A stretch of 64,000 nt of DNA from Rhodococcus qingshengii JCM 15477 (lineage in GTDB: Bacteria; Actinomycetota; Actinomycetes; Mycobacteriales; Mycobacteriaceae), in assembly GCF_023221595.1 (NCBI RefSeq), contig NZ_CP096563.1:664501-728500 (forward strand), in the 5' to 3' direction. The notes beneath the pieces were generated by a model that searched no databases, was not told where the DNA came from, and worked only from the letters and a program-made list of their open reading frames with translations. The translations under genes were made by a program, and so were the position numbers. Position 1 is the first letter of the stretch. Every line of letters starts with the position of its first letter. Positions 26,468-47,364 of the stretch are shown here, one piece after another.

Positions 26468-26474
26468 CTGGGTG

Positions 26475-26640
26475 CAGTACCTCGTTAGGTGAGGCTTCTG
26501 CACGAACACAGGCCACTGATCTCACGACGTCGAGAGACGCCCAAGGTTAGGACAGATCTCCCCGGCTTAAGGGGTGATCCAAAGTGGCTTCCCGTTCTTG
26601 ATCGGGACACGTCGTGCAGTGCCAAAACTCGGACGTGGAG
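26475..26640 (+). ncRNA. M-box (ykoK) magnesium riboswitch
   Basis: Several conserved blocks of the M-box appear in the right order: GTTAGGTGAGGCT (26484-26496), ACAGGCCACTG (26508-26518), GTCGAGAGACGCC (26529-26541), CCGGCTTAAGG (26562-26572), AAAGTGGCTT (26581-26590) and CAGTGCCAAA (26617-26626). The aptamer binds several Mg2+ ions and lowers expression of downstream Mg2+ transport genes when Mg2+ is plentiful. Here the downstream genes are an MgtA-type ATPase and MgtC. The usual helix-linked terminator is not obvious downstream, so the output may act through translation or Rho and the leader ORF at 26776. Confidence 0.93.
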
Positions 26641-26775
26641 GTGTTTTCGCAGCTTGATGCCGGTTTCTTCCGGCGAAGGCGAGAGTACGTCGATATTCGG
26701 TTCTCCTGGCGTGTGCTGTGCGCATGTACTTGTGTGGCGTCATCGGACGCCCCGAACTTTCAGGAGGTGACCATC

Positions 26776-26902: not shown

Positions 26903-26994
26903 ACCGCTGACGACTTCCATTGTCGCTCAGCGCATTCTGCTGCCCTCATGCACTGGCATGGTCCGGCGTGTTCGGGCAGCCGAGGAGATTCGTC

Positions 26995-29697: not shown

Positions 29698-30402
29698 GTG
29701 GAAATCCACGTCATCCTTGTGCGGATAGCGCTCGGGCTCGTCCTCGGCGCTGCCGTCGGGATCGAAAGGCAATGGCGCGCAAGGATGGCGGGTCTGCGAA
29801 CCAACGCGTTGGTGAGCTTGGGTGCGACGCTCTTCGTCATCATGGGCGCGTACGGGTTTCAGGGCCCGGACGCCGATCCGACGCGCGTCGCAGCGCAGAT
29901 CGTCTCGGGGATCGGTTTCCTCGGTGCTGGAGTGATCATGAAGCAGGGTGCGTCGGTCACCGGCCTGAACACTGCCGCCACTCTGTGGGCCACTGCCGCC
30001 GTCGGCGCACTGGCAGGCGGCGGAATGTACTGGGTCGCGGTGTTCGGTGCCGGCGCAATCATGTTGGCGAACACGCTGTTGAGGCCGTTGGGCCGGATGA
30101 TGGATCACCAGCCTGCCCGAACCGGACGCGAAGAACCACCCGCGGACTACACCTTCGAGGTGACCTGTCACGGCGACGCCGAAGCTCACATCAGAGGTCT
30201 TACCGTGCAGTCCATTTCGAGGCCCGAGTTTCAGCTCCGGTCAGTGCAGTCCTTCGACATCCCGGACAGCGACCGCGTGCGGGTGGTGGCCGAACTGGCT
30301 GCCGCGGAGCGAGACGACGGACTCCTGGAATCCGCCGTCAGCCGACTTAGCCTTGAACCGTTGGTGACTCACATTCGGTGGGAGGTGGAACCGTCGAAGT
30401 AG
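29698..30402 (+). CDS. mgtC: MgtC/SapB family membrane protein
   Basis: Protein of 234 residues. Residues 1-130 hold four to five membrane helices with the MgtC signature: GLVLGAAVGIERQWRARMAG, GLRTNALVSLGATLFVIMG, VSGIGFLGAGVIMKQG and GLNTAATLWATAAVGALAGG. The C-terminal 90 residues are a soluble ACT-like domain. MgtC proteins inhibit the F1Fo ATP synthase and support growth at low Mg2+ and in hosts. TAGGAG of the ribosome site overlaps the mgtA stop, so both are made from the same M-box-controlled mRNA. Confidence 0.92.
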   Translation: MEIHVILVRIALGLVLGAAVGIERQWRARMAGLRTNALVSLGATLFVIMGAYGFQGPDADPTRVAAQIVSGIGFLGAGVIMKQGASVTGLNTAATLWATAAVGALAGGGMYWVAVFGAGAIMLANTLLRPLGRMMDHQPARTGREEPPADYTFEVTCHGDAEAHIRGLTVQSISRPEFQLRSVQSFDIPDSDRVRVVAELAAAERDDGLLESAVSRLSLEPLVTHIRWEVEPSK

Positions 30403-32793: not shown

Positions 32794-34788
32794 TCAGTCT
32801 TCGTTGTCGACTTGTTCTTCACGAGGGAGATCGGACGCCTTCGGGGCGGCGGGGACCCATTCACGGAGCGGTTGAACGACTTCGGAGTAGAAGATTTCGG
32901 CCGAACTGGTCACACTGTTGATGAAACTCGCAGCAGTACCCGAACGCTTGCTGCCGAGTGTGAAGGACTGTGTCAGTACGAATGAACTGAGTTGGCCGCC
33001 TTGACTGTCTGTCAACAGACGTGGCGTTGTGCGCGCGGATGCAACGGTCTCGCAAGTCGACGAGGCCGGGCCGGTGAACAACGCTTCGACCAACAATTCG
33101 GCAGGAGCATTCTTCAACTGACGCAAAACCCAGGTGACTCGTTTTCCCGAAGTGCCTTCGTCTGGTGCAGAAACCGTTGTACTGCAGCTCACTTTGTTGG
33201 TTCTCAAATCAGCAGTAACCCGTAGCTCTCCGGCTGCGTCGGGGATTCGGAGGGTGGCGCTGAAGGTGCCGTCGTTCGCCAATTCGTTGACCGTCAGCGC
33301 GGTACGCGCATCCGCATCGTTGACCACCCGACGGGGCAACACGTGTTTGACGACGACACCGAGATCTGCAGTGAACCGCAGCGCAAGGTTCCGCGCGAGC
33401 GCGATCCACGACTGAGCGACCGCCGCTGCCTTCGGATCTCCAGGACGTAGAGTTCCGGCGCTCACGGAATCGCGTATCGATACCCAGTGCCGACCCATGT
33501 CGACGAACTCCGCGGCCCCGGACTTGGGATGTTCGATGTACCGGAGAAATTCGCTGAGAATCCAACCTTGCAGCGGATTGTCGATTCCGCCGTGCGAGAG
33601 CACCATCCGAGCCTCGTGGATGACTTCTGCCCAAGAGAGATGCCGCAGCGCAACTTTGGTGAGCTTGCGCTTGTCCACCTCGACGGGTAATTCGCCGGCG
33701 CCGGCAGGCAAGTCGTTGGAGAGGCTGATCACGACGTCGTACTTGTTCTTCTTGGCGACGTCGAGATAGTTTTCGAGCTGCTCTCGGGTATGGGTGCCTG
33801 CTCCAGTCTTTGCCTCGAGCAAGCCGGTCCAGAGCCGGCTTCCGCGGGCGATGCGCCACACCGCATCCGGGATCACCCGAGATTCACCTTTGACGTAGGG
33901 AACTTCGACATAGCCCTCGAACGAGCCGGCCGGCGCGCCCACGCGGGACGAAACCGCCCGCGCAAACAATGGAACCGCTTGCATCGTGGAAACCAATGCC
34001 GACGTTGTGCGTCGTTCTTGTTCCTCACCGGTTCCGACGCCGATCACCGAGAAGAGTCGTGCAGGTTGCCAGGCCTCGGACTCTGCGTGCTTGAATTCGG
34101 GTAGTGGGGCTTTCTTGGGCACCGGCTTCGCTGTACGAACACCACGCTGTCGGACGGGCTTCGCGGGCGTTGAGGGCTCTGTGACTGACGGTTCCTGTTC
34201 CGATATCGGTTGGATTGCCTCGAGCTCAGGTGACCCAGGCTCCTCGACGGGGGCATCCTCACTCACGTCGACTCCGAAGTCTTCGGCGAGCCCGGCGAGG
34301 CCTGATGCCCAACCTTGGCCGATTGCGCGAAGTTTCCACTTCCCGCTACGTCGATAGACCTGGCCGAAGACGAATGCGGTTTCGGTGGACGCGTCGGCGG
34401 TGACGTATTCGGCGATAGGAGAGCCACCGGAATCAACCAGTTGGAGCGCAAGTTTGCCGAGGTCGCCGAAAGAGCCGGTGTCGACGCTGCCTATCAAAGC
34501 GATCGCGTCGACCTGATCGGGTACAGCAGCGAGGTGGACGAGGAGGCGCTCGTGCGGACCGGATTCGGCTTCGCGGCGGCCGAGATAGCGAACCGAGCCG
34601 TCAGCAGATTCCTGTTGGTTGTAGAAGACGAAGTCCGCGTCGGACCTGACTTTTCCGTCGGCACCCAGAAGCAATGCCGAGGCATCGACACCGAATTCCG
34701 TATTGTCCCAGGTGATCACGATGTCGATCTGATCGAGTTCGTCGGGGAGCTCGATGTTCTGGCCTTTGGACAGAAATTGGTCTTCCAC
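32794..34788 (-). CDS. TerD domain fused to a PD-(D/E)xK nuclease domain
   Basis: Protein of 664 residues from the GTG at 34788, chosen because GAGGGG lies 6 bases upstream and translation then starts like other TerD proteins (FLSKGQNIEL). Residues 1-175 are TerD: FGVDASALLLGADGKVRSDA and WKLRAIGQGWASGLAGLAED. A Pro/Glu then basic linker runs to about 235. Residues about 240-400 hold a nuclease-like core: VIPDAVW (Asp308), LLEAKTG (Glu325-x-Lys327) and REQLENYLD (Gln337-x-x-x-Tyr341), the PD-(D/E)xK plus QxxxY pattern of RecB/restriction-like enzymes. The C-terminal 250 residues are unassigned. It suggests metal-sensing linked to DNA or RNA cleavage. Confidence 0.8.
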   Translation of the reverse strand: MEDQFLSKGQNIELPDELDQIDIVITWDNTEFGVDASALLLGADGKVRSDADFVFYNQQESADGSVRYLGRREAESGPHERLLVHLAAVPDQVDAIALIGSVDTGSFGDLGKLALQLVDSGGSPIAEYVTADASTETAFVFGQVYRRSGKWKLRAIGQGWASGLAGLAEDFGVDVSEDAPVEEPGSPELEAIQPISEQEPSVTEPSTPAKPVRQRGVRTAKPVPKKAPLPEFKHAESEAWQPARLFSVIGVGTGEEQERRTTSALVSTMQAVPLFARAVSSRVGAPAGSFEGYVEVPYVKGESRVIPDAVWRIARGSRLWTGLLEAKTGAGTHTREQLENYLDVAKKNKYDVVISLSNDLPAGAGELPVEVDKRKLTKVALRHLSWAEVIHEARMVLSHGGIDNPLQGWILSEFLRYIEHPKSGAAEFVDMGRHWVSIRDSVSAGTLRPGDPKAAAVAQSWIALARNLALRFTADLGVVVKHVLPRRVVNDADARTALTVNELANDGTFSATLRIPDAAGELRVTADLRTNKVSCSTTVSAPDEGTSGKRVTWVLRQLKNAPAELLVEALFTGPASSTCETVASARTTPRLLTDSQGGQLSSFVLTQSFTLGSKRSGTAASFINSVTSSAEIFYSEVVQPLREWVPAAPKASDLPREEQVDNED

Positions 34789-34878
34789 GAATTTCCCCTC
34801 ATCGCTGTGCACAGTCGGATTTCGCATCTTGATTGTCCAGGGGCAGATCGAATTTTGTGTGGTTTCGAATCCGCAGGG

Positions 34879-34924
34879 CAATTGTTCAGCCGCAGGCTGA
34901 ATTTGGCGCGCGGCTGAACAATTG
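34879..34924. repeat. 13-bp inverted repeat upstream of the TerD-nuclease gene
   Basis: CAATTGTTCAGCC (34879-34891) is exactly complementary to 34912-34924, and the 12-base GGCGCGCGGCTG occurs twice (34904 and 34924). The structure lies about 90-135 bases before the TerD-nuclease start, in its promoter or 5' leader. An operator or RNA hairpin is possible. Confidence 0.6.
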
Positions 34925-34969
34925 GCGCGCGGCTGGGAATGCAGAGAGTTTCAATTCAGGCATAACAAA

Positions 34970-35005
34970 CAAAACGCCCGCAACCAATTGGTCGCGGGCG
35001 TTTCG
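34970..35005 (-). terminator. Intrinsic terminator of the terC gene
   Basis: On the minus strand AAACGCCCGC and GCGGGCGTTT flank a 12-base centre (GACCAATTGGTT, itself palindromic), followed by TTGTTTGTTATG. It is 11 bases after the terC stop, a typical factor-independent terminator. Confidence 0.85.
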
Positions 35006-35015
35006 AAAAAGAACG

Positions 35016-36140
35016 TCAGACAGTTGCCGGAGTGTTCTCGTCCAACTTCGGATCTTCGTTCGCGATTCGCTTGTTGCGAATGAGGCTGCTGATGAAAGCA
35101 GCGCCGATCAAGAAGACACCGACCAGGCCGGTGATGATCTCGTTGATGTGAACGCCGATGGACACCATCAAGATGACGGCCAGAGCGCCGATGGCCCAGT
35201 GCGCACCGTGCTCGAGGTAGACGTAATCGGAGAGCGTGCCCTTGCGGACCAGGAAGACCGTGATGGAACGGACGAACATCGCGCCGACGAAGCCGAGGCC
35301 GAGGGCGATGATGATCGGGTCTGCCGTGATGGCGAATGCGCCGATGACGCCGTCGAACGAGAAGGACGCGTCGAGGACCTCGAGGTAGAGGAACAGGAAG
35401 AAGCCGGCCTTACCGGTCGCCTTCGCGAGCTGCGTGGGGCCGCCGGACTTGGCGGTTTCTTCCTCTTCGCCTTCTTCCGGCAGATTGAACAGTTCACCCA
35501 AGCCGTTGACCGCGATGTAGGTGATCATGCCCAGAACGCCCGAGATCATGACGGTGGAGACCTTGTCGTCAGCGGCGAGGAACGAACCACTCAGTACCAG
35601 GACGATGCCGGCCACGACGACGGAGAGCTGATCGAGCTTGCCGATGCGAGCGAGGGGCTTCTCGAGCCAAGACAGCCAGGTGATCTCACGCTCTTCGAAG
35701 ATGAAACCGAGGAAGAGCATCAGCAGGAACATGCCACCGAAGGCAGCGATCTGCGGGTGAGCGTCCGTGAGGATGGTTTCGTAGCTCGGCTCGTTCGTGC
35801 CGGGGAAGTACGCTGCACCGTCCGGCGGCGGGTTGAGCGCGAGGTCGAGTGCAGCAACGGGTCCGAGACCGGATGCAGCCCAGACGATCACGAGTGGGAA
35901 CACCAGACGCATACCGAAGACGGCGATGATGACGCCGATGGTGAGGAAGATCTTCTGCCAGAATTCACTCATTCTTTGCAGAACAGTGGCGTTGATGACG
36001 GCGTTGTCGAAGGAAAGCGAGATTTCCAGAATCGACAGGATGATGACGAGGAACAGTGCCTCGGGTCCGCCGTAGATGAACGCAACGATCATCGCGAGGA
36101 TCGAAATTGCGATGGATAAACCGAATATTCGCAGTACCAC
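35016..36140 (-). CDS. terC: TerC-like integral membrane protein (DUF475)
   Basis: Protein of 374 residues with about nine membrane helices. LEISLSFDNAVINATVLQRM and the repeated EVLDASFSFDGVIGAFAITA are the paired acidic SFDNA/SFDG motifs of TerC proteins, which put conserved Asp and Glu residues inside the membrane, probably for metal ions. An acidic loop (PEEGEEEETA) lies near residue 220. TerC works with TerD-type proteins in tellurite and stress resistance and may load metals on exported proteins. GTG at 36140 is used. A TerD gene starts 713 bases upstream on the same strand. Confidence 0.92.
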   Translation of the reverse strand: MVLRIFGLSIAISILAMIVAFIYGGPEALFLVIILSILEISLSFDNAVINATVLQRMSEFWQKIFLTIGVIIAVFGMRLVFPLVIVWAASGLGPVAALDLALNPPPDGAAYFPGTNEPSYETILTDAHPQIAAFGGMFLLMLFLGFIFEEREITWLSWLEKPLARIGKLDQLSVVVAGIVLVLSGSFLAADDKVSTVMISGVLGMITYIAVNGLGELFNLPEEGEEEETAKSGGPTQLAKATGKAGFFLFLYLEVLDASFSFDGVIGAFAITADPIIIALGLGFVGAMFVRSITVFLVRKGTLSDYVYLEHGAHWAIGALAVILMVSIGVHINEIITGLVGVFLIGAAFISSLIRNKRIANEDPKLDENTPATV

Positions 36141-36216
36141 GGAGCGTGGCCCTTTCTAGTTGGTCAATGCAGAGTGGTTACTGCAAGCGGTCTCTCACCG
36201 CATCCGAACGTGAAAA

Positions 36217-36254
36217 CGGGGAGGGTTCCACAGACTACTGCGGAACCTTCCCCG
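36217..36254 (-). terminator. Hairpin after terD
   Basis: CGGGGAGGGTTCC (36217-36229) pairs with GGAACCTTCCCCG (36242-36254) with one G-T pair. It lies in the 137 bases between terD and terC, 23 bases after the terD stop, so it may separate or weaken transcription of terC. Confidence 0.7.
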
Positions 36255-36277
36255 AGTCAGCTCGTCGAGAGCGAAGA

Positions 36278-36853
36278 TCAGACGTTGACGCCGTAATCGC
36301 GCGCGATGCCCGCGAGGCCGGACGCGTAGCCCTGGCCGATTGCGCGGAACTTCCACTCTGCACCGTTGCGGTACAGCTCACCGAAGACCATGGCGGTCTC
36401 GGTGGAAGCGTCCTCGGAGAGGTCGTAACGAGCGAGCTCGTTGCCGTTCGACTTGTCGACGACGCGGATGTACGCGTTGCGGACCTGGCCGAAGGACTGC
36501 GAGCGAGCTTCTGCGTCGTAGATCGAGACGGGGAAGACAACGCTCTCGACCTCGGCGGGAACCGCTGCGAGGTTCACGTCGATCTGCTCGTCGTCGCCTT
36601 CGCCTTCGCCGTCCGTGTTGTCACCCTTGTGCTCGATCGAGCCGTCGGGCGAACGGAGGTTGTTGAAGAAGATGAAGTGCTGGTCGGAGAGGACCTTCTT
36701 GTTCGAGCCTGCGCCGATTGCGCTGGCGTCGAGGTCGAAAGCAGCTCCGGTGGTGGAACGCGCGTCCCAGCCCAGGCCGACGACCACTGCAGTCAGGTTC
36801 GGGGCCTCCTTCGTGAGAGAGACATTGCCGCCTTTGGTCAAGCTGACGCCCAT
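36278..36853 (-). CDS. terD: TerD tellurium/stress resistance protein
   Basis: Protein of 191 residues, the standard TerD length. [20 protein letters not shown] opens it, [11 protein letters not shown] and [19 protein letters not shown] carry the acidic calcium-binding sites, and [20 protein letters not shown] closes it. TerD proteins are cytoplasmic Ca2+-binding scaffolds needed for tellurite, phage and oxidative stress resistance. AAAGGACCCC precedes the ATG. It is divergent from the coiled-coil gene at 37013 and upstream of terC. Confidence 0.95.
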
Positions 36854-37000
36854 TCAGGGGTCCTTTCAAGAGGAGAGACAAGGCCCACTACGACGCGAAG
36901 TCGTCTTGGGAGTGTGTTTACCTCCACCACCCTAACCGCAGTTCCGGTGTGTTCGCCGTAACAGCAGAATTACGAACCGAGAAGCGAAGTGCTGGACCCG

Positions 37001-37012
37001 TAGGATTCAATC
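37001..37012 (+). promoter_or_regulatory. Possible -10 element for a leaderless Ter operon mRNA
   Basis: TAGGAT at 37001-37006 ends 6 bases before the GTG start at 37013, the spacing expected when transcription begins on the start codon. No Shine-Dalgarno sequence is present. A -35 element is not clear. Confidence 0.4.
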
Positions 37013-38242
37013 GTGGTGGGAAGATGGTCGGAGCGCTTCAATCGGGGGGCAAGAGTGGGGGAGTCGGTCAGTCGTGCGCGGGAGGCGCAGACGGCCATGG
37101 TTTCGGCGTTCCTCGACATGGACAAGCGGCAGACCATCGCGTCGGCAGCAGTCGACGCTTCCGCCGAGCTGTACCCCGAGCGAGGGCTGCGCGCTGCGTG
37201 GGAACCCGTTCGGGATCGGTGCTTCCAGGCTGCGTCGGACTACCTCGACACATCCGAGCGCTATGGCAACGATCAGGTACTTCACCAGAACCCGAACGGT
37301 GCTCGGGTGGCATTCGAAAAGTCGGTAGCCGAACTCGTCGAGGCGGCGAAGGGCGTCGACGCCTTCTACAACGGGCATCGTGCGCACCTCGAGCAGGCGA
37401 CGGTCACGATGTCCGCCATTCCCGTCCTCGGCCAGCAGGCCCGAACCCTGGCGAACGCCGTCCGGGAAAAACTGGCTGCCACCGATCAGCGCTATCGCGA
37501 GTACCCGTCGGTGGTGACGGCCTCCGAACACCTCGACGACGCGGTTGCAGCGCTCGACAATGCGCGCTCATCCGGTCGCGCCGACGCAGTCCGCACGCGG
37601 GCCGAGAGTGTCCGCGAAGCGGTATCGGCGCTCGAGGAAGCATTGGCAGAAGCCCCGTCGACCCAGCACCGTGCCGAGATGACGATTTCCTCGGTCTCGA
37701 CCAGGTTGTCGGCAGTGCGCACTCGAGTGGACCGCCTGGATCCGGCGTACTCCGCATTGCTGCGCGAGTTCAACGCCGCGAGTTCCGCTGACCTCGTCGA
37801 CAACAGCAGTCGCAGCCGAGCACATATCGATCAGGCCGACATCGATCTCAAGGAAGCGAAGCAGTCGTTGGCTGCGGGAAACCCCGAACATGCACTGGCT
37901 TTGATGGCCGAAGCCCGCGTGCACCTCGCCGACGCCGAAGCGTGTGCCGACGCCGTGACGGACCGTCTCGCTACTCTGCGTGCAGTTCGGGCAGATCCGA
38001 GCCAAAAGGAACGTGAGGTTCGTTTCCGGCTGAAAGACGCCCAGATGTTCGCTGTTAACCAAGGGTTGGTGGCGGAGTGGGGCTCTGTACTCGATGCTCA
38101 ACTAGCAAGGATCGAGCGAGCGAGTGCGTCACTGTCGGGAACTCATCCGGACTACTGGTCGTATGTATTACAGCTGGACTCGGTATCGACGTTCATCACC
38201 GAAGTTGTCGAGAAGATGCGGGCGCGAGCCGGCAAAAACTGA
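37013..38242 (+). CDS. Coiled-coil protein of the Ter operon
   Basis: Protein of 409 residues, nearly all alpha-helical and without membrane segments. Long heptad-like stretches rich in Ala, Glu, Arg and Leu include TASEHLDDAVAALDNARSSG, AVSALEEALAEA and IDLKEAKQSLAAGNPEHALA, so coiled coils are expected over most of residues 90-330. I recall similar unnamed helical proteins next to terD in actinobacteria. No enzymatic motif is present. It opens the rightward Ter operon and could be a scaffold or membrane-associated structural part. A second GTG is at 37016. Confidence 0.7.
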   Translation: MVGRWSERFNRGARVGESVSRAREAQTAMVSAFLDMDKRQTIASAAVDASAELYPERGLRAAWEPVRDRCFQAASDYLDTSERYGNDQVLHQNPNGARVAFEKSVAELVEAAKGVDAFYNGHRAHLEQATVTMSAIPVLGQQARTLANAVREKLAATDQRYREYPSVVTASEHLDDAVAALDNARSSGRADAVRTRAESVREAVSALEEALAEAPSTQHRAEMTISSVSTRLSAVRTRVDRLDPAYSALLREFNAASSADLVDNSSRSRAHIDQADIDLKEAKQSLAAGNPEHALALMAEARVHLADAEACADAVTDRLATLRAVRADPSQKEREVRFRLKDAQMFAVNQGLVAEWGSVLDAQLARIERASASLSGTHPDYWSYVLQLDSVSTFITEVVEKMRARAGKN

Positions 38243-38334
38243 ATGGTCGGGCCGATCGGGGGATCGGAGTTGCCCGACGCGTTGTCACAGGGGGTCGTTT
38301 CATGGACTTGATTGCGGTTACAGAGAGAAGAGAA

Positions 38335-39492
38335 ATGCAGCACTTTCAACATCTCGAGGATGACGTGCGGGAGCAACTGTTCCTGCATGCGCCTCGATCG
38401 TTCGCGGATTCCGACGAGAGGGATCTGCTCGCGATTGCTCTGGGTGCAACTCTCTACGTTCCTGCCACCCGGGCCGGGTTGGCCGACATCGTGTCCAAGC
38501 GTGCGTCCGAGGGCGTCAGTTCGATGGTGCTCGATCTCGAGGATGCCGTCGCCGATCACGAGGTCGAATCGGCGCGAGCGAACGCGGTCGAAGCTCTCGA
38601 CAAGATCGCGTCCACCGACGCCGTCGGCATGCTGCTGTTCGTGCGGGTTCGTGAAGTCGCGGACATCCACAAGGTCGTCGCGTCGTTGACCGAGGGGCGC
38701 GCCGCGCTCACCGGGTTCGTCATCCCCAAGTTCGGCAGCGAGTCCGGCCCCGTGTTTCTCGACGCCGTCGCGGACGCATCCGAGTTGCTGGGCAAGCATC
38801 TCTACGCGATGCCGGTACTCGAATCACCCGCGCTTGTGCACCGCGATACTCGCGATCTCGAATTGCGCACCATCAGTGGGATTCTCGCGCAACACCGCGA
38901 TCGAATCCTTGCCGTCCGCATCGGCGCCACCGACATGTGCAGCACCTTCGGCATCCGTCGTGACCGCGATCTGACCATCTACGACGTGCGCGTGGTGGTC
39001 GACGTCATCGCCGACATCGTCAACTATCTCGGGCGCGCGGACGGTTCGGGTTTTGTCATCACCGGGCCCGTGTGGGAGTACTTCGCCGATCACGAACGCA
39101 TGTTCCGGCCGATGCTGCGCGCCACCCCGTTCGAGGAACACGACGCCGTCCGGTTCCGTCAGCATCTCGTCAGCCGCGACCTCGACGGTCTGCTCCGTGA
39201 GATCGCGCTGGACCGAGCCAACGGAATCCAGGGCAAGACGGTCATCCACCCGTCGCACGTCGCAGCGGTCAATGCATTGTCCGCCGTCACGCACGAGGAA
39301 TATCACGATGCCCTCGACATTCTCGGTGCCGACGCCGGGGGAGTTCAGGCGTCCGGCTACCGGAACAAGATGAACGAGATGAAGCCGCACCGCAATTGGG
39401 CCCATCAGACTGCGCTCCGAGCTCACGTGTTCGGTGTGACCAACAAGGGAATCACGTTCGTCGAGTTGCTGACGGCGTTGGTCGATCGATGA
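38335..39492 (+). CDS. HpcH/HpaI aldolase/citrate lyase-like enzyme of the Ter operon
   Basis: Protein of 385 residues. A TIM-barrel of the CitE type is indicated by LYVPATRAGLADIVSKRASE, the metal and substrate segment SSMVLDLEDAVADHEVESAR (DLEDAV with EDAV acidic ligands), and LAVRIGATDMCSTFG. The segment QGKTVIHPSHVAAVNALSAV is typical of CitE and malyl-CoA lyase. It would split or form a C-C bond on a small acid. I prefer the ATG at 38335 (MQHFQHL), as in relatives I recall, over 38302. Its stop overlaps the next start (ATGA), joining it to the PRTase gene. Confidence 0.85.
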   Translation: MQHFQHLEDDVREQLFLHAPRSFADSDERDLLAIALGATLYVPATRAGLADIVSKRASEGVSSMVLDLEDAVADHEVESARANAVEALDKIASTDAVGMLLFVRVREVADIHKVVASLTEGRAALTGFVIPKFGSESGPVFLDAVADASELLGKHLYAMPVLESPALVHRDTRDLELRTISGILAQHRDRILAVRIGATDMCSTFGIRRDRDLTIYDVRVVVDVIADIVNYLGRADGSGFVITGPVWEYFADHERMFRPMLRATPFEEHDAVRFRQHLVSRDLDGLLREIALDRANGIQGKTVIHPSHVAAVNALSAVTHEEYHDALDILGADAGGVQASGYRNKMNEMKPHRNWAHQTALRAHVFGVTNKGITFVELLTALVDR

Positions 39493-40778
39493 CAGAGGTT
39501 GTCCAGTCCCGGGACGTTCCCTGGGCTACAGCAGAATTCGGCTTGGACCTCGTTCACGGTGATTCGTCACTCGGGCATTCGGTGCCCGATCTGGTGATCC
39601 CGGGACTTCGGCGGAATCCGCGTCGCGCTCACCTGCTGGTGTCCACTGTGCTGGGAAAGCACGTGCCCACCGAGCCGTCCGTGGTCATCGGTGCTGCCGA
39701 CGACCTCGGCGATCTGGTGCGGACAACCCTCGGTGAGGGTGTCGACGTCGTCGTGCTCGGGTTTGCCGAAACCGCAACAGGTTTGGGTCATTGCGTTGCG
39801 GCCCGTCTGCGCGCTCACTGCTACCTGCACTCGACTCGTCGCGACGTACCAGGTGCTACGACGCTCGCCGGGTTCGAGGAGGGGCACTCGCACGCCACGA
39901 GCCATCTGATGCAGCCGACGTCCGCCGAACTGTTCGAGAACGACCTGCCTCTGGTCCTCGTCGACGACGAGATCTCCACCGGCGCCACCGCGATCGATGC
40001 CATCCGGGCGCTGCACGGGCAATGCCCGCGAAGCCGCTACGTCGTGGCCTCGCTGGTGGACATGAGAACCGAGGAACACCGAGTCGCCGGCGAAGCCGCG
40101 GCGGCAGAGTTGAATGTACGAATCGACTACGTCTCTCTCGCTTCGGGTTCGACGGTCCTGCCCGACGGCCTGACCGAGCGCGTCACGGCGCTGGATGCTC
40201 CGGATCTGAATCCGATCGGTGACCGCCGCGGCACGCTGTCTCAGATGGATCTGCCGTGGCCGGCACATGTCCCCGACGGTGGCAGGCACGGCTTTCTCGA
40301 CGGCGACACCGCGGCATTCGAGTCAGCCGTCGAGGCAGCGGTGTCCATTCTCAAATCGTCGATCGACGCGTCGCGTGCTGTGATCGTGATCGGTCACGAG
40401 GAGTTGATGTACCTGCCACTGCGCATCGCTGCAGGCTTGGAAAGCTCTGGGCGAGCGGTTCGGTACCAGACCACAACTCGCTCACCCGCGTACGTCGTCG
40501 ACGTGCCGGGATACCCGCTGCGTCGCGGGTTCACCTTTCCGGCACCCGAACTGGGTGAGAACGACCCTCGATACGTCTACAACGCGCAGTGGCCTGATGC
40601 GGCGGTCGACGCCCTTGCGTTGCTGGTCATCGACGAGCCCGCCGACACCGATCGGTTGACGGCGATGGACGGAGTGGTCGAGGTGTTGCGGAACTCCGGC
40701 ACCGACGTCCTGGTCGCCACCGTTCGCGGGGCCGATCCGTCGGCGCTGCGAGATTCCAGAGCAGGGAGCTCGTCATGA
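39489..40778 (+). CDS. Phosphoribosyltransferase with TRSP domain
   Basis: Protein of 429 residues. The N-terminal 250 residues are a phosphoribosyltransferase: the PRPP-binding loop is LVLVDDEISTGATAIDAIRA (residues about 156-170), after VVVLGFAETATGLGHCVAAR. The rest fits the TRSP domain found C-terminal to this PRTase group. PRTases build nucleoside-type compounds from a base or ring and PRPP. Comparative work on Ter systems proposed that this enzyme, the citrate lyase-like protein, StiP and HAD protein make a nucleoside-like metabolite. Start and stop both overlap neighbouring genes by four bases. Confidence 0.85.
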   Translation: MTEVVQSRDVPWATAEFGLDLVHGDSSLGHSVPDLVIPGLRRNPRRAHLLVSTVLGKHVPTEPSVVIGAADDLGDLVRTTLGEGVDVVVLGFAETATGLGHCVAARLRAHCYLHSTRRDVPGATTLAGFEEGHSHATSHLMQPTSAELFENDLPLVLVDDEISTGATAIDAIRALHGQCPRSRYVVASLVDMRTEEHRVAGEAAAAELNVRIDYVSLASGSTVLPDGLTERVTALDAPDLNPIGDRRGTLSQMDLPWPAHVPDGGRHGFLDGDTAAFESAVEAAVSILKSSIDASRAVIVIGHEELMYLPLRIAAGLESSGRAVRYQTTTRSPAYVVDVPGYPLRRGFTFPAPELGENDPRYVYNAQWPDAAVDALALLVIDEPADTDRLTAMDGVVEVLRNSGTDVLVATVRGADPSALRDSRAGSSS

Positions 40779-41884
40779 ACGAACCATTGGTCGGGCCCGA
40801 ATTCGGTTCGTACGCGCCGGGCGAAGTGAAGTGGCTGCTCAAGGATCTCTCGCACGTGGATCTCGAAGCGGATGTATCCGTGCGCGAGAAGCGTATTCAG
40901 TCGGGTGAGGCTCACTATGCCGAATCTCTTCCCATCGAGTACCAACCCGATCAGGCATACCGGGATCTTTTCGAGACGGTGCTCGCCGAGAGCGCTCCAC
41001 GGTTGGCGCGCGCTGTCGGGACCGTGATGGACCTGGTCTTGGCCGAGCGGGGGAGTGACATCACGCTGGTCTCACTCGCCCGGGCCGGAACACCGATCGG
41101 GATTCTGATGCGGCGCTGGGCCCAGCAGACCCGCGGGTTGACGTTGCCGCACTACGCGGTGTCCATCGTGCGTGGCAAAGGTATCGATTCCGTCGCACTC
41201 GATTATCTTGCGCACCATCACGACTCGGAGAACGTCGTCTTCGTCGACGGCTGGACGGGCAAGGGCGCAATCGCCCGCGAACTCGACGCAGCGTTGACGG
41301 AGTACCACGAGGCAGGCGGAGCGAAGTTCGACTCCGATCTGGCTGTTCTCGCCGACCCCGGACACTGCGTGCGAACGTACGGGACCCGTGACGACTTCCT
41401 GATCGCGTCGGCGTGCCTCAATTCGACGGTGTCCGGCTTGGTCTCACGAACTGTCCTCAACGACACCCTCATCGGGCCCGGCGATTTCCACGGCGCCAAG
41501 TTCTACGCCGACCTCGCCGACGTCGACGTTTCCAACAGGTTGCTCGACGTGGTCTCGGCCGAGTTCGATTCGGTTCGCGGCGACGCAGCGGATTCTCTTG
41601 CTGCAGTGCTCGATTCCGATCGGACGCCGACCTGGGCCGGTTGGGAGTCGGTGGAGAAGGTGCAGGCCGAGTACGGGATCTCGACGGTCAACTTCGTCAA
41701 ACCCGGTGTCGGAGAAACAACCAGGGTGCTGCTGCGCCGGCTTCCCTGGAAGGTTCTGGTGCGCGAACTCGAAGCCCCGGAGCACGCACACATCCGGTTG
41801 TTGGCACAGGCCCGTGGGGTCCCGGTCGAGGTCGTCCCGGATCTCGCCTACTCGTGTGTCGGCCTGATCAAGGACATCACGTGA
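40775..41884 (+). CDS. StiP-like PRTase-fold protein with C-terminal PELOTA RNA-binding domain
   Basis: Protein of 369 residues. The N-terminal 250 residues match the StiP (cysteine protease StiP/PRTase-like) family: SYAPGEVKWLLKDLS at the start, LVSLARAGTPIGILMRRWAQ in the middle and VVFVDGWTGKGAIARELDAA, which resembles a PRPP loop with DGWTGKG. The C-terminal 70 residues (RVLLRRLPWKVLVRELEAPE, then VPDLAYSCVGLIKDI) look like a PELOTA domain, which binds RNA. It may transfer a ribosyl product to RNA or a related acceptor. Its start overlaps the PRTase stop and its stop overlaps the HAD start by four bases each. Confidence 0.82.
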   Translation: MNEPLVGPEFGSYAPGEVKWLLKDLSHVDLEADVSVREKRIQSGEAHYAESLPIEYQPDQAYRDLFETVLAESAPRLARAVGTVMDLVLAERGSDITLVSLARAGTPIGILMRRWAQQTRGLTLPHYAVSIVRGKGIDSVALDYLAHHHDSENVVFVDGWTGKGAIARELDAALTEYHEAGGAKFDSDLAVLADPGHCVRTYGTRDDFLIASACLNSTVSGLVSRTVLNDTLIGPGDFHGAKFYADLADVDVSNRLLDVVSAEFDSVRGDAADSLAAVLDSDRTPTWAGWESVEKVQAEYGISTVNFVKPGVGETTRVLLRRLPWKVLVRELEAPEHAHIRLLAQARGVPVEVVPDLAYSCVGLIKDIT

Positions 41885-42738
41885 GCCGTGTGGACACCGC
41901 TGCGTCCCAGGTCCTGATCGCCACGGATCTGGACCGCACGATGATCTATTCGCAGGCCGCGATCGGCGGCGATCCCAGTGGCTCCGACCTGGATTCGGCA
42001 CCGAGCCCGCTGTGCGTCGAGTACTACAACGGCGGTCCGCTCTCGCACATGAGCGTCGAATCGATCGAACTGCTGACCGCGCTCAGCTCGCGGGTTCCGG
42101 TAATTCCGACGACGACCAGGACCATTGCGCAGTTCCAGCGGATCGATCTTCCCGGCGGACCGTGGAAGTACGCGATCACGAGCAACGGCGGAAACATCCT
42201 CGTAGACGGCGAAGCCGATCGCGACTGGCGAAACGAGATCGACCGTTCGACCCGTAAGTCCGGCGCCGAGTTGCCGCAGGTTCAGGCGGAACTGGAATCG
42301 CGGATCGACTCGAGCTGGGTCAGCTCCATTCGTGTTGCCGACGACCTGTTTCCATACCTGGTCGTCGATCTGGCCGTGATGCCGAGTGATTTCGAAACCG
42401 AATGGAATGGGTGGTGCGTGACGCGGGGCTGGAACGTCTCGCGTCAAGGCCGCAAGATCTACACGATGCCCGACGCGGTCTCGAAGTCACGAGCGCTGGC
42501 AGAGGTGCGCCGCAGACTGGTCGAGTCGGGTGATCTGGATCAGTCCGCCGTCGTGATCTCGGCTGGTGACGGCGCATTGGATGCGGACATGCTCGAATAC
42601 TCCGATTTCGCGATCAGGCCCAGGCACGGTGAGCTGGAAGAACTGAATTGGCAACGGCCGACCGTTACTGTGACAGAAAGGTCCGGTATCGCAGCGAGCG
42701 CGGAGATCTTGCGGTGGTTCTCTTCCGCGCTCGGGTAA
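41881..42738 (+). CDS. HAD-superfamily hydrolase of the Ter operon
   Basis: Protein of 285 residues starting with GTG 41881 inside the stop of the StiP gene. Motif I is LIATDLDRTMIYS (DxDxT), motif II IPTTTRTIAQF, the Lys is in PDAVSKSRALAEVRRR, and motif IV is ISAGDGALDADMLEYSDF. It is a cytoplasmic phosphatase of the Cof/sucrose-phosphatase type. In the operon it would remove a phosphate from the proposed nucleoside-like product. The substrate is inferred from context alone. Confidence 0.85.
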   Translation: MSRVDTAASQVLIATDLDRTMIYSQAAIGGDPSGSDLDSAPSPLCVEYYNGGPLSHMSVESIELLTALSSRVPVIPTTTRTIAQFQRIDLPGGPWKYAITSNGGNILVDGEADRDWRNEIDRSTRKSGAELPQVQAELESRIDSSWVSSIRVADDLFPYLVVDLAVMPSDFETEWNGWCVTRGWNVSRQGRKIYTMPDAVSKSRALAEVRRRLVESGDLDQSAVVISAGDGALDADMLEYSDFAIRPRHGELEELNWQRPTVTVTERSGIAASAEILRWFSSALG

Positions 42739-42765
42739 TACACGCTCTCTATGAAGGGGATTTAG

Positions 42766-44175
42766 TTGTCTGTATCGCTTGCCAAAGGGCAGAACGGCCC
42801 GCTGGACGTCTCGGATGTAGTTGTCTCGGTTCAGCTGGCTGCGGCCGCTGACCTGTCTGCACTCCTCGTGACGAGCAACGGAAAAGTTCGTTCCGACGCC
42901 GACTTCGTCTTCTTCAACCAGCCGACCGGACCCGGCGTGCAATTGGTACCCAACCCGGGTGGCATTGCCTCACTCCGAGTCTCACTCGCCGGCGTACCCG
43001 CCGATATCGAGCAGGTTCGCGCCGTCATCACGCTCGACGACGCTTCGTCGAACTTCGGGCGCACTGCTGCACCGACCGCTCGGGTCTCCGATGCGGCCGG
43101 GAACGTGTTGTACGAGTACGTGATCGACGGCCTCACCACCGAGTCCATCGTCATCGCGCTCGAGGTGTACCGACGCCAGGGTGCATGGAAGGTGCGCGCC
43201 GTCGGCCAGGGGTACGCGGGTGGATTTGCCGCGCTGGTCACCGATCATGGTGTGTCCGTCGACGATGCACCACCGCCGCCTCCCACTCCGGTCGCGGCTC
43301 CGGCGCCGATCACCCCGCCCTCGTCCGTCGCTCCTACACCGCCGGCGTACAACCAGCCGCCGCAGCAGCAGCCTTCGTACAACGCGCCGCCGGTTCCGCC
43401 GGCCCCGCCCGCGTACAACCAGCCGCCGGCCTACAACCAGGGACCGACGCCGCCGGCCTACCCGCCGGCGCAGCAGCCTGCCTACAACCAACAGCCTGCG
43501 TACAACCAGCAGCCGACGTACAACCAGGCACCCCCGGCGCCTCCCGTGCAGAACCAGCCGCCGGCGCAGCAGCCCGAGGTGAGCCTGGTCAAGGGACGCC
43601 CCGTCAGCCTGACCAAGGGCCAGAAGGTCACACTCCGCAAGGAGGGCGGCGTCGCGCTCACCATGATCCAGATGGGTCTGGGTTGGGATCCGATCAAGAA
43701 GAGCGGCCTGTTCGGAAGCCGTACCGCCGATGTCGACCTCGACGCTTCGGCACTCCTGTACGCCGACGGCAACCTCGTCGACGTCTGCTACTACGGTCAG
43801 TTGACGTCCAAGGACGGCTCGGTCCGTCACATGGGTGACAACCTGACCGGCGACGGAGACGGCGACGACGAGGTCATGCTCGTCGATCTTCAGCGGGTCC
43901 CGGCTCACGTGACCACCGTGATCTTCACCGTGACCTCGTACCGCGGACACACGTTCGAGCAGGTCTCCAACGCTTTCTGCCGTCTCGTGGACAGCACCAC
44001 CAACTCCGAGCTCGCTCGATACACGCTCCAGGGCGGCATGGCTTTCACCGGAATGGTGATGGCAAAGGTGTACCGCGTGAACGGTGAATGGAAGCTGCAG
44101 GCCATCGGTGAAGGTATCCAGGCCAAGCACGCAGGAGAAGCTGCGCCGCAGCTGGGCCGTTTCCTCACTGCTTGA
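42766..44175 (+). CDS. Double TerD protein with Pro/Tyr/Asn/Gln-rich linker
   Basis: Protein of 469 residues from a TTG at 42766 with AAGGGGA ahead. Residues about 1-165 are one TerD domain (MSVSLAKGQN, then WKVRAVGQGYAGGFAALVTD). Residues about 166-270 are a low-complexity linker with many AYNQ or TYNQ units and proline runs. Residues about 275-465 are a second, fuller TerD (SLTKGQKVTLRKEGGVALTM, VDLDASALLY, GDNLTGDGDGDDEVM). The first domain lacks some acidic residues of the calcium sites; the second keeps them. The linker repeats may be a flexible or phase-separating spacer. It follows the HAD gene by 27 bases. Confidence 0.9.
   Translation: MSVSLAKGQNGPLDVSDVVVSVQLAAAADLSALLVTSNGKVRSDADFVFFNQPTGPGVQLVPNPGGIASLRVSLAGVPADIEQVRAVITLDDASSNFGRTAAPTARVSDAAGNVLYEYVIDGLTTESIVIALEVYRRQGAWKVRAVGQGYAGGFAALVTDHGVSVDDAPPPPPTPVAAPAPITPPSSVAPTPPAYNQPPQQQPSYNAPPVPPAPPAYNQPPAYNQGPTPPAYPPAQQPAYNQQPAYNQQPTYNQAPPAPPVQNQPPAQQPEVSLVKGRPVSLTKGQKVTLRKEGGVALTMIQMGLGWDPIKKSGLFGSRTADVDLDASALLYADGNLVDVCYYGQLTSKDGSVRHMGDNLTGDGDGDDEVMLVDLQRVPAHVTTVIFTVTSYRGHTFEQVSNAFCRLVDSTTNSELARYTLQGGMAFTGMVMAKVYRVNGEWKLQAIGEGIQAKHAGEAAPQLGRFLTA
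43340..43535 (+). repeat. YNQ-coding repeat tract inside the double TerD gene
   Basis: About nine near copies of a unit encoding (P)(A/S/T)YNQ or YN plus prolines and glutamines, with TACAACCAG as the recurring DNA core. The irregular spacing suggests past slippage; copy number may vary among strains. Confidence 0.75.
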
Positions 44176-44333
44176 GTCGAGACTGCATACTCGAGATGAA
44201 TCCGGTTCGGCGGTAGGTGATTTCGATCGCCGTCCGTCGAACCGGACATCGTTTCCCCCTCTGTGCGTTAACCTCATGCGGCATGTCGAGCCGTCAGTCG
44301 AGCGGCCGTGCGCGAGAGGACTTGGCACAGTAG

Positions 44334-45227
44334 ATGATCATTCGAGGGAAACTTCTCGGTCGGGCGGCGGCCGTCGCAGGCGTTGTGCTGGCGCTCGTGA
44401 GCACCGGAATCGCGCAGGCTTCGGTGCCCCAGTCGGAAACTCGGTCAGGAGTATCCGGCACCGGGATCAAGTACGTCGCCCTCGGTGACTCCCGCGCCTC
44501 CGGCCCAAGGCTGGAACCGATGTACCCCGACGCCTGTTCGCGTTCGTACGAGAACTTCGCGGGCAAGATCTCTCGGGCACTCGAGGTCGCGGAGTTCACC
44601 GACGTCTCTTGCAGCGCGGCACGCGCCGAGAACATCATCGACACTCCACAGCTGATTCCGAACTACTGGCCTGTCCAACTCGATGCCGTTCACCCGGACA
44701 CCGACCTGATCACCATCTCGATCGGCGGCAACGACTCCAACAGCATCTTCCTCGGCCCCCTGTGCGTCGCTCCGGGGCCAGGAACCGATCGTGGATGCCG
44801 GTACGACCCGCTCGCGAATTCCGTCGCCCAATCCGGAATCGACCGGGCTGCCGGAGAATTGGATCGCATCCTGACTGCGGTCACGCAGCGCGCGCCTAAC
44901 GCTCGCATCTACCTGATCGGTGAGGGCGGCATGATCTCCTCTCGCGGATGCTGGCCGAACATTCCGTTCTCAGACGCCGACGCATCCTGGTTCATGGACT
45001 ACTTCGCTCGCTACAACACGAAGTTCGACGAGGTCGCCCACGCCCACGGTGTGCGCACTGTCGACATTGCGGCGGCGAGCATCGCCGGCGGACACGACGC
45101 ATGTGCGAGTGCAGATCAGCGTTGGTTCGAAGGCCTGTTCTCGGAGTCGACGGCGCAGCGCTTGCACTTCACGGACGCTGGGATGACCGCGGTGGCCGAT
45201 CTAGTGGTGGCGGACGTGCAAGGCTGA
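44334..45227 (+). CDS. Secreted SGNH/GDSL hydrolase
   Basis: Protein of 297 residues. A signal peptide is clear (IIRGKLLGRAAAVAGVVLAL, ending near IAQAS). SGNH blocks: VALGDSRASGPR (block I, nucleophile Ser), ISIGGNDSN (block III, Asn) and a C-terminal LHFTDAGMTAVADL carrying Asp and His (block V). Several Cys residues suggest disulfides. It is an extracytoplasmic esterase or lipase. It lies inside the Ter island between two TerD-domain genes but has no evident functional link to them, so it may be an unrelated insert. Confidence 0.88.
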   Translation: MIIRGKLLGRAAAVAGVVLALVSTGIAQASVPQSETRSGVSGTGIKYVALGDSRASGPRLEPMYPDACSRSYENFAGKISRALEVAEFTDVSCSAARAENIIDTPQLIPNYWPVQLDAVHPDTDLITISIGGNDSNSIFLGPLCVAPGPGTDRGCRYDPLANSVAQSGIDRAAGELDRILTAVTQRAPNARIYLIGEGGMISSRGCWPNIPFSDADASWFMDYFARYNTKFDEVAHAHGVRTVDIAAASIAGGHDACASADQRWFEGLFSESTAQRLHFTDAGMTAVADLVVADVQG

Positions 45228-45261
45228 CCGAGAGAGCCCGGTCATGGCATAGTTCGCTGCT

Positions 45262-46824
45262 GTGGGTATGACTTTTGTTCCCGGACAGAACGCGCCGCTG
45301 CAGGCGCCCGTGGTGACGTTTCGAGCCGAGAGCCAGACGCCGTTCGACGTGTCGGCGCTGGTAGCGGACGCGAACCTGCGGGCATTGACGTCCGCGGACT
45401 TCGTGTTCTACAACCAACCGTCCACCGCTGGAGTGCAACTCGACGAGAGTGGCATCCGGGTGGAGCTCGATCGACTTCACCCCGATGCGGCAGCGGTGTT
45501 GTGCATCGTGAGCGTGGATCCGGCAGCGACGGCCGCGGGAGCCTTTCGCACGGCCGGGCTCTCCGCCACCCTGAGCGATCAATCCGGTTCGGTCCTGGCC
45601 GAATTCGCGATCCCCACCGCAGGTACCGAGACAGCGGTCATCTGCTGGGAGCTGTACCGAAAGTCCGGTGCCTGGAAGATCCGGGCCGTCGGGCAGGGCT
45701 ATGCGGGTGGTCTGGCGGAACTGATCTCGGTGCACGGCGTCGAGGTCGACGACGAGCCGGCACAACCAGCCCCGACAGCCGCGCCCGCGTGGGACTCCGC
45801 GGTGGAGCCGTTGGAGGTGGGCCGAGGCCTCGAGCGCGCGTGGATGATCTTCGAGGACGCCTCACGATCTGCCGCTTCCTTCGTCTCCAGCAGTGAGTAC
45901 GCGCTTGCCCGTTTGGACGAGGATCTGACCGCAGCCGTCGCAGATCCGTCGTTGCGGAACTCGGCAGCGGGAGTGGCTGCGCGCGACGCCGCGCAGAAGC
46001 GTCACGACGACCTCGTCTCGCTCGCGAGGGACAATCACGCTCGCGACAGTGCTCAGCTTGCCCACGAACTCGGCGTGATCGACGGCGTGCTCCCGCGGTC
46101 GATGGCGTCGTGGAAGTCGGTGTCGTGGGCGGGCACAACTGATCCGGCCCAGATCACAGCCGTCAGCGACGGAATGCGTCTGGGCGAGCTGTCGGCTCCG
46201 GACCGCGGCACACTCACCGTTCCGTACTGCGTCCCGTTGCCATTGCGCCGGCCGATCTGGGTGGACAGCACGTCGAGCAAAGCAGCGCTCGGTCTGATCA
46301 GTGCCGTCACCGTGCGTGTCATGGCCGCCGGCCCGATGCCGCTACTCGACGTCGTCGACCTGACCGGCTCGCTCACTCCACTGACCGACCGACTGGCACC
46401 GATGCTCGCGGGCCCGGTCATCACCGCTCACACCGAGATCTCAGCACGCTTGCGGGCACTGGCCGAGGCCGTCGACATGGGCGAACTCGCGCGAATGAGT
46501 GGTGTCGCAGATGGCCCGAGTTCCCTGCGCCTGTTGATCCTCAGCGATTTCCCGCACGGGTACTCCGCCGAAGACGCACAGACCATCATGTTCCTCGCCG
46601 AACGCGGACCGGGAATCGGTTTGTCGATACTGATTGTCGGAGAGGACGAGTCGAACTTCGCGGAAGAATCCGTCGCCGCACTGTCCGAGGGGTGCCAACA
46701 TCTTTCGGCAGCAGGGCAGACGGAGGTTCACGATCCGTGGACCCGCACGCAATGGCACTTCACCCCGGACGTGCTCGACCCGATCTCCGAGTCGCGAATT
46801 CTGGCAGTGTTCGACCGTACCTAG
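45262..46824 (+). CDS. TerD-domain protein with FtsK/HerA-like C-terminal region
   Basis: Protein of 520 residues from GTG 45262. Residues about 1-165 are TerD (MTFVPGQNAPLQAP, DFVFYNQPSTAGVQL, WKIRAVGQGYAGGLAELISV). Residues about 190-280 are helical. Residues about 310-510 follow the order of FtsK/HerA-type ATPase domains (LTVPYCVPLPLRRPIWVDS, LISAVTVRVMAAGPMPLLDV, LRLLILSDFPHGYSAEDAQT, GPGIGLSILIVGED), but the P-loop Gly-Lys-Ser/Thr is missing. It may be an inactive ATPase relative that binds a partner. The tail assignment is tentative; TerD is certain. Confidence 0.7.
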   Translation: MGMTFVPGQNAPLQAPVVTFRAESQTPFDVSALVADANLRALTSADFVFYNQPSTAGVQLDESGIRVELDRLHPDAAAVLCIVSVDPAATAAGAFRTAGLSATLSDQSGSVLAEFAIPTAGTETAVICWELYRKSGAWKIRAVGQGYAGGLAELISVHGVEVDDEPAQPAPTAAPAWDSAVEPLEVGRGLERAWMIFEDASRSAASFVSSSEYALARLDEDLTAAVADPSLRNSAAGVAARDAAQKRHDDLVSLARDNHARDSAQLAHELGVIDGVLPRSMASWKSVSWAGTTDPAQITAVSDGMRLGELSAPDRGTLTVPYCVPLPLRRPIWVDSTSSKAALGLISAVTVRVMAAGPMPLLDVVDLTGSLTPLTDRLAPMLAGPVITAHTEISARLRALAEAVDMGELARMSGVADGPSSLRLLILSDFPHGYSAEDAQTIMFLAERGPGIGLSILIVGEDESNFAEESVAALSEGCQHLSAAGQTEVHDPWTRTQWHFTPDVLDPISESRILAVFDRT

Positions 46825-46908
46825 TGGCCGATGGCGGATTGCCGAGCGCACAGGCAGAGTGGTGGTACGACCACGCGCGGTGTGTGGCGGCAATACTCGA
46901 GGAGACTC

Positions 46909-47364
46909 ATGGCATTCTGGGATCAGTTGAAGGCTAAGGCTCAGGAGATGAACGGCCAGCTCAAGACAAAGACCAGCCAGTTCCAGAACAAGGAATTCAA
47001 GAACGCGAGCATGGCAATGTGCGCGTTGATCGCCGCCGCAGACGGTTCGATCGATCCGTCGGAGCGTCAGAAGACCGCCGCGCTGATCATGAGCAACGAG
47101 TCGCTCGCGGTCTTCCCGCCGGACGAGCTTCGTGAGCAGTTCGACTGGTACTGCAGCAAGCTGTCCTCGGACTACGAGTTCGGCAAGGTCGAGGCAACCG
47201 CGACCATCGCCAAGCTCAAGTCGAAGCAGGATCAGGCCCGCGCGGTCATCCAGATCGGCATCATCATCGGCGGCGCGGACGGCAACTTCGACGAGCACGA
47301 GCGCGGCGTCGTACGCGACATGTGTTTTGCAGTCGGAATCTCTCCGGCCGAGTTCGATCTCTGA
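46909..47364 (+). CDS. terB: TerB tellurite-resistance protein
   Basis: Protein of 151 residues from the ATG at 46909 with GAGGAG ahead. It is an all-helical TerB: SMAMCALIAAADGSIDPSER and the later IIIGGADGNFDEHERGVVRD are the two acidic metal-binding DG(S/N) sites. TerB sits at the inner membrane with TerC and TerD-type proteins in the proposed stress complex. It closes the Ter island, followed by a strong terminator. Confidence 0.94.
   Translation: MAFWDQLKAKAQEMNGQLKTKTSQFQNKEFKNASMAMCALIAAADGSIDPSERQKTAALIMSNESLAVFPPDELREQFDWYCSKLSSDYEFGKVEATATIAKLKSKQDQARAVIQIGIIIGGADGNFDEHERGVVRDMCFAVGISPAEFDL

Follow-up and report, generated by a model that had tools for sequence, protein, structure and literature searches.

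In a 64,000-nucleotide stretch of the Rhodococcus qingshengii JCM 15477 genome (the window, in which positions are counted from the first letter), we analyzed a Ter locus that encodes TerD, TerC-family, and TerB proteins together with adjacent genes for PRTase_2-TRSP, a phosphoribosyltransferase (PRTase), for StiP-PELOTA, and for a HAD phosphatase (Table 1). This combination identifies it as a Ter system with a biosynthetic module. Domain searches bore out what a first-pass annotation of the same DNA had said of the surrounding Ter genes: there are five TerD domains in total (one in the stand-alone gene on the minus strand, two in the tandem protein, and one each in the nuclease-like and FtsK-like fusions), a TerC/DUF475 protein, and TerB. 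Two genes of the locus had been left unnamed, namely those for the coiled-coil protein and the SGNH hydrolase. By reading starts and stops directly, we also confirmed that the four genes from the lyase to the HAD phosphatase overlap by four bases at each of their three junctions (ATGA, ATGA, and GTGA); the lyase has an alternative in-frame start (ATG at 38302). The tight stoichiometry that had been drawn from these overlaps does not hold up as a conclusion, as 4-base overlaps are compatible with translational coupling and do not demonstrate stoichiometry.

Table 1. Genes of the Ter locus in the window, with the matches that name them
Gene product	Position	Start/stop	Strand	Basis
TerD domain fused to a PD-(D/E)xK-type nuclease-like region	32794..34827		-	Pfam TerD E 4.4e-44; nuclease activity predicted
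TerC-family (DUF475) integral membrane protein	35016..36140		-	DUF475 E 6.4e-132, TerC E 3.4e-15
Stand-alone TerD	36278..36853		-	Pfam E 6.8e-85
Actinobacterial Ter-locus coiled-coil protein	37013..38242		+	Window copy without a Pfam match above cut-off
C-C bond lyase, CitE/CLYBL-like TIM barrel, optional enzyme	38335..39492	stop TGA	+	Pfam C-C_Bond_Lyase E 2.1e-122
PRTase_2-TRSP, canonical APRT-like phosphoribosyltransferase with TRSP	39489..40778	ATG/TGA	+	PRTase_2 E 1.5e-64, TRSP E 1.4e-32
StiP-PELOTA, PRTase fold with L7Ae-like tail	40775..41884	ATG/TGA	+	StiP E 1.4e-104, PELOTA_1 E 1.1e-35
HAD-IIB phosphatase	41881..42738	GTG/TAA	+	NCBIfam HAD-IIB models, below their cut-offs
Tandem TerD, two domains with Pro-rich linker	42766..44175		+	Pfam
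SGNH/GDSL hydrolase, probably accessory	44334..45227		+	In 6 of 124 loci
TerD with FtsK-like C-terminus lacking a P-loop	45262..46824		+	FtsK likeness by eye
TerB	46909..47364		+	E 2e-24

The locus had been put forward as a candidate for an undescribed system. Its outline, however, is already published: in the available part of PMC7824862, the PRTases and HAD enzymes of a Ter system yield a derivative of a nucleoside or nucleotide that TerB and TerD may sense, and in that of PMC8115787, Klebsiella genes are described as a cluster that putatively makes a nucleoside-like metabolite. The prediction is credited in both papers to Anantharaman, Iyer, and Aravind (2012), and Rhodococcus ter genes are mentioned in the accessible text of PMC6790187. 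In addition, Pfam families exist for the lyase, PRTase_2, TRSP, StiP, PELOTA, and the Ter proteins. The genes belong to the Ter stress system predicted in 2012, in the form seen in Rhodococcus and Nocardia, and relatives commonly have them; as a locus it is ordinary, and its product is a prediction only. Among the literature matches listed for StiP or for Ter with phosphoribosyltransferase or nucleoside, none was evidently a functional study of the module. Compared with the 2012 module, as its content is given in the accessible parts of the citing papers, the window shares the Ter proteins, PRTases, and HAD enzyme, here together with StiP-PELOTA and a CitE-like lyase. Its layout is further marked by a DUF475-type TerC, a coiled-coil protein of its own, and the TerD-nuclease and TerD-FtsK-like fusions. 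The only match to the Ter ATP-grasp in the genome falls below the cut-off, which sets the locus apart from the enterobacterial plasmid type.

Distribution, gene order, and the smallest core

The first-pass annotation had coupled TerD proteins to a biosynthetic operon based on 5-phosphoribosyl 1-pyrophosphate (PRPP), and co-occurrence in 61 related genomes supports this coupling. StiP and TerD were both found in 30 of these genomes, TerD only in one (G026, 74% complete), StiP only in none, and neither in the other 30 (hypergeometric test, 1.3e-16, with kinship ignored), and PRTase_2 was over its cut-off in the same 30 genomes as StiP. These counts indicate that TerD and the module come together within this group. 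StiP is present in 22 of 28 genomes of the genus, the window's own included, and missing from the other 6; phylum-wide it was found in 15 of 296 genomes (14 over the cut-off). Outside the group the two can occur apart: Bacillus subtilis, which served as a control, has TerD and lacks StiP, and in 14 of 89 long loci there is no TerD in the stretch fetched around StiP. Moreover, StiP matched 2567 of 72,556 plasmid records, mostly from Klebsiella, Escherichia, Enterobacter, and Salmonella, and 1683 of these 2567 are predicted to be conjugative. Only three of 50,697 phage records had a match, two of them being the same phage, ME3, and the third an unverified scaffold with bacterial-looking genes. 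The plasmid form can be illustrated by the IncHI2-type ter locus of p112298-catA (L031), which resembles the window in its run of PRTase, HAD, StiP, and HpcH/HpaI genes beside terZ, TerD, terB, terC, and terD; it differs in having ATP-grasp, DUF4236, TerW, TerY-C, PP2C, and kinase genes, and in that HAD precedes StiP.

Gene order was compared across 124 loci, mapped with profiles built from the window and plasmid proteins. Outside this set are the short loci L001-L030, L036 (fragmented gene calls), L149 (no match to the StiP profile), and the later additions L156-L160. Because 80 of the 124 loci are best matches to a Lachnospiraceae-type query, Firmicutes are over-represented. The 24 same-family loci (the window, L034 from Nocardia farcinica, and 22 fetched loci; the StiP-positive genomes G004, G010, and G025 are not included) all keep the order TerC, TerD, lyase, PRTase_2, StiP, HAD, TerD, TerD. 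The coiled coil precedes the lyase in 22 of these 24 loci, and in L137-L144, which belong to another family of the same class, it is placed behind the HAD gene. The constancy of this order, together with the presence of StiP in most genomes of the genus, lends no support to the term 'island' that had been applied to the locus.

Across the full set, PRTase_2 adjoins StiP in 114 of the 124 loci, an adjacency beyond chance, and HAD does so in 68 of the 85 loci that have a HAD match. The profiles found PRTase_2 in 117 loci, the lyase in 103, HAD in 85, and ATP-grasp in 18. Lyase and ATP-grasp are both missing near StiP in phage ME3, in a Rhizobium plasmid, and in two distant loci of the same phylum, although each of these has PRTase_2, StiP, and a HAD-like gene. 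The module can be reduced to a core of PRTase_2, StiP, and HAD, the lyase and ATP-grasp being optional. These tallies and absences point to a conserved chemistry of a pair of PRPP-type enzymes, joined in most loci by one phosphatase. In a distant version from the same phylum (L147:8970-11830), the TerD genes are followed by PRTase_2, a StiP of very divergent sequence, and a HAD-like gene; no lyase was found there.

Two PRTase-fold proteins and a phosphatase

The PRTase_2 part of PRTase_2-TRSP carries the PRPP motif with its acid pair and TG, as expected of a type I phosphoribosyltransferase; the fold search barely covered the TRSP domain. A single open frame, uninterrupted by a stop, spans PRTase_2 and StiP in 16 of the 124 loci. 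Fifteen of these fused loci are high-GC and actinobacterial and one (L101) has 31% GC, while the two proteins occupy separate frames in the window and in 25 other loci above 60% GC. The fusion suggests that both enzymes work in one pathway and may allow channelling.

StiP itself is, by its predicted structure, a PRTase-fold protein whose PRPP loop has a single, non-vicinal acid. Its best structural matches are PRPP-dependent ribofuranosyltransferases, and it also resembles PyrR and HPRT. With CriT/CrpP of Hib Bcs3, Cj1432 (described in the accessible text of PMC12096443), and T. composti 7shg, it shares a PRTase fold without a vicinal acid pair and a HAD partner. The second acid in loop 1 that marks the ribofuranosyltransferases is absent from StiP, and the PELOTA tail is a feature of StiP. 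Since the loop-1 acid is lacking, we do not file StiP as a member of that family, and our claim is that it may work like one. Within the PELOTA tail, the stretch K-x-G-x-x-E-x-T-(K/R)-x-x-x-R has L7Ae as its best PDB match when the StiP profile is used (E 0.005); the window sequence alone gave only eL8, at 0.27. In L7Ae, this stretch holds kink-turns through its Asn, Glu, and Lys, and the Asn is replaced by Gly in StiP. K300, E305, T307, R308, R312, and R313 (trimmed numbering) are invariant in 121 of 121 StiPs; such column counts cover 121 of the 124 loci, spans of at most 300 residues having been left out, among them the divergent L147 and L148. Judged from these residues, RNA binding by the PELOTA tail is plausible. 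It is possible, as the first-pass annotation suggested, that the product goes onto RNA; in L147 and L148 the tail residues are conserved only in part. Pfam, NCBI, and plasmid annotation name StiP a cysteine protease, a function that we rejected: no cysteine is invariant in the 121 sequences, the best cysteine column reaching 117, with the Citrobacter, Rhizobium, and ME3 proteins lacking a cysteine there.

The HAD gene product has no Pfam match over cut-off. Its catalytic residues, D16, D18, T78, K202, G229, D230, and D234 (DxD, Thr, Lys, and GD...D motif), are invariant in the 21 sequences aligned out of the 85 found, and HADs of the window type keep both Asp residues of the DxD motif, whereas CrpP keeps only the first. 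The best PDB matches of the HAD profile are 6cj0 and 6d3v, labelled 'trehalose phosphatase' (E 1.6e-39), followed by the next match at 7.7e-8. In the Ter cluster of the Pseudomonas plasmid pPA272, a gene annotated as trehalose-6-phosphatase lies between PRTase and StiP. Its product, an orthologue of the window HAD, is about 92% identical to 6d3v (20 differences over 251 residues, counted by eye), and the enzyme solved as 6cj0, 6d3v, and 6d3w is an orthologue of it; between the pPA272 copy and the window HAD the identity is only 22%. The accessible part of PMC6838324, an inhibitor study of trehalose-6-phosphate (T6P) phosphatases, calls its Pseudomonas aeruginosa enzyme extrachromosomal, and the cysteines that it names match Cys85 and Cys231 of the pPA272 HAD, so that 6d3v is probably that enzyme. 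The identity of the pPA272 HAD to 6d3v means that, under another name, one enzyme of the core has apparently been solved and assayed in vitro. The activity, removal of a primary phosphate from a glycoside, would also suit a ribosyl 5-phosphate.

A possible route to the product and its rivals

The strongest new lead is this core of two PRTases and a phosphatase, with a ribofuranosyltransferase-like StiP. The reading we tentatively favour, while stopping short of calling it probable, is that a base is phosphoribosylated, then O-ribosylated, then dephosphorylated, and that the product is read by the Ter proteins. PRTase_2-TRSP, with its PRTase fold and PRPP motif, would join a small base-like acceptor to PRPP by the usual chemistry of phosphoribosyltransferases. 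In a second transfer, StiP would use PRPP to place ribose-5-phosphate on a hydroxyl, either of that nucleotide or of a PELOTA-held RNA, a role suggested by its fold, its single-acid PRPP loop, and its physical linkage to PRTase_2 in many relatives. The HAD enzyme, which has the catalytic residues of a phosphatase, would remove the exposed 5-phosphate, comparable to the two-step ribofuranosylation of bacterial glycans. In some lineages only, the CitE-like lyase, or elsewhere the ATP-grasp, might prepare or decorate the acceptor. Extending the published hypothesis, TerD and TerB may bind the product and act on the DUF475/TerC membrane protein, and possibly also on DNA through the TerD-nuclease and TerD-FtsK-like fusions.

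A bolder and rather unlikely form of this idea is that PRTase_2, StiP, and HAD make up a two-step O-ribosylation machine of the stress response in which a double phosphoribosyltransferase acts on a hydroxyl of an RNA that its L7Ae-like tail recognises, or of its own nucleotide product, before HAD trims the phosphate. If true, bacteria would have either an equivalent of the RNA ribosylation by Rit1 or an alarmone of the disaccharide-nucleoside type that TerD reads. Rit1 puts phosphoribose from PRPP on initiator tRNA, according to the available part of PMC7694415; the likeness to StiP would be one of reaction, PRPP-dependent RNA ribosylation. StiP relatives occur on many plasmids and in many environmental bacteria while their product is only predicted, and the present analysis reduces the core to three proteins, casts doubt on the protease label, and offers a concrete PRPP reaction.

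Several observations weigh against the route from base to ribosylated nucleotide. The identity between StiP and the ribofuranosyltransferases is 8-10%, their lead in Z over the next rows is 0.5 to 1.5 and partly tied, and none of them is among Foldseek's best 50 StiP rows. Loop 1 of StiP reads S-L-x-R-x-G, with no acid where CriT has D680, and the L147 and L148 StiPs are without the loop Lys and part of the tail residues. For the phosphatase, part of the strength of the HAD profile match comes from proteobacterial rows, and by itself the window HAD reaches 6cj0 and 6d3v at 7.4e-6; 20 of the 89 long loci have no HAD match (18 if the weak L147 and L148 matches are counted); and T6P is not a riboside. 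A tellurite phenotype could also arise without the product, because terZ-F without the module is enough for tellurite resistance in E. coli MG1655, as stated in the accessible part of PMC8115787. Lastly, the literature searched yielded neither a reaction nor a product for PRTase_2 or StiP.

A doubtful yet serious alternative is that the module makes a small-molecule signal and nothing else. Both PRTases would act on nucleobase-like substrates supplied by the lyase and ATP-grasp, StiP would form an N-glycosidic bond, HAD would release a free nucleoside analogue for TerD and TerB, and the PELOTA tail would be merely structural or a substrate clamp. This corresponds to the hypothesis in the accessible text of PMC7824862, and it is consistent with the likeness of StiP to PyrR and HPRT and with the presence, in most loci, of a lyase that keeps its CitE-type residues. 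Against this stand the dispensability of lyase and ATP-grasp, the single-acid PRPP loop, which is unlike that of nucleobase PRTases, and the L7Ae-type residues found in all 121 StiPs, though incomplete in L147 and L148.

The same likeness to PyrR, which is among the closest solved folds, would also fit a PyrR-style regulatory role for StiP, in which its PRTase fold detects PRPP or a nucleotide, PELOTA holds structured RNA, and only PRTase_2 and HAD catalyse. The profile match to L7Ae over the kink-turn-binding stretch agrees with such a role. We nevertheless consider it improbable, as the invariant polar residues at the loop ends of the PRTase core and the fusion to PRTase_2 in 16 loci suit an enzyme. 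Moreover, no Rfam RNA lies at the operon: the single match in the window is an M-box about 12 kb away, and 20 further loci gave two matches (RT-5 RNA and tRNA), both at least 3 kb from StiP.

Very improbable, in our view, is a mobile tellurite-resistance island whose biosynthetic genes serve tellurite detoxification. Consistent with mobility are the many plasmid-borne, StiP-bearing Ter clusters, the absence of StiP from some genomes of the genus, and an IS21-like istA/istB pair (48691-51026, named by eye) just downstream of TerB; the conserved order in the same-family loci and the presence of StiP in most of the genus speak against it. That terZ-F confers resistance without the module further argues that the module does something else or more. 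Finally, a proteolytic stress response with StiP as a cysteine protease, for which the family name speaks, is scarcely credible given the variable cysteines and the predicted PRTase fold.

Accessory genes and neighbouring features

The lyase profile matches CLYBL (5vxc, E 1.8e-8), CitE, and malyl-CoA lyase, and residues E163 and D200 are at least 90% conserved in 29 sequences. In the CitE superfamily, such a glutamate and aspartate bind Mg. The nuclease proposed for the TerD fusion on the minus strand is supported by its motif, the PD and ExK occurring without exception in the 120-121 sequences that have a residue at those columns, the window included, so that a PD-(D/E)xK-type activity may be predicted. 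This TerD-nuclease architecture had 306 significant matches, and the named ones among the 120 matches listed were mostly from Rhodococcus and Nocardia. By profile, the fusion stands beside the operon in only 3 of the 124 loci, and it may lie elsewhere in other genomes. For the protein described as an FtsK-like TerD, the TerD domain stood and the FtsK likeness is one seen by eye; a Walker A motif, GxxxxGK[ST], is absent from 10 of 10 aligned sequences. With no P-loop, the FtsK-like tail is probably not an ATPase. All 10 aligned sequences share an invariant D-F-P-H-G-Y segment.

The coiled-coil protein was found in 32 of the 124 loci and TelA in 39, and the two never share a locus. This pattern led us to consider the coiled coil as a TelA homologue, which we rejected when hhalign returned no match. 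PADLOC defence families, scanned with 10 proteins, gave weak matches only, namely a JetC-like coiled coil (5.6e-5) and PRTase_III-A (0.009). Regulation of the operon by a riboswitch or other Rfam RNA was likewise rejected, as no Rfam match lies beside it in the window or in the 20 further loci. The M-box magnesium riboswitch of the window (26474-26647, RF00380, 149.6 bits) precedes a P-type cation ATPase (26920-29688) and MgtC (29698-30402), with no indication that it belongs to the Ter locus. The RT-5 RNA lies near a Lachnospiraceae Ter locus (L037:1267-1379). According to the available part of PMC12054061, terC of K. pneumoniae contributes to tellurite and zinc resistance. In a Ter cluster on a Pseudomonas plasmid, a gene annotated as a 'trypsin-like peptidase domain' protein (L156:6884-8023) lies between the ATP-grasp and PRTase genes.

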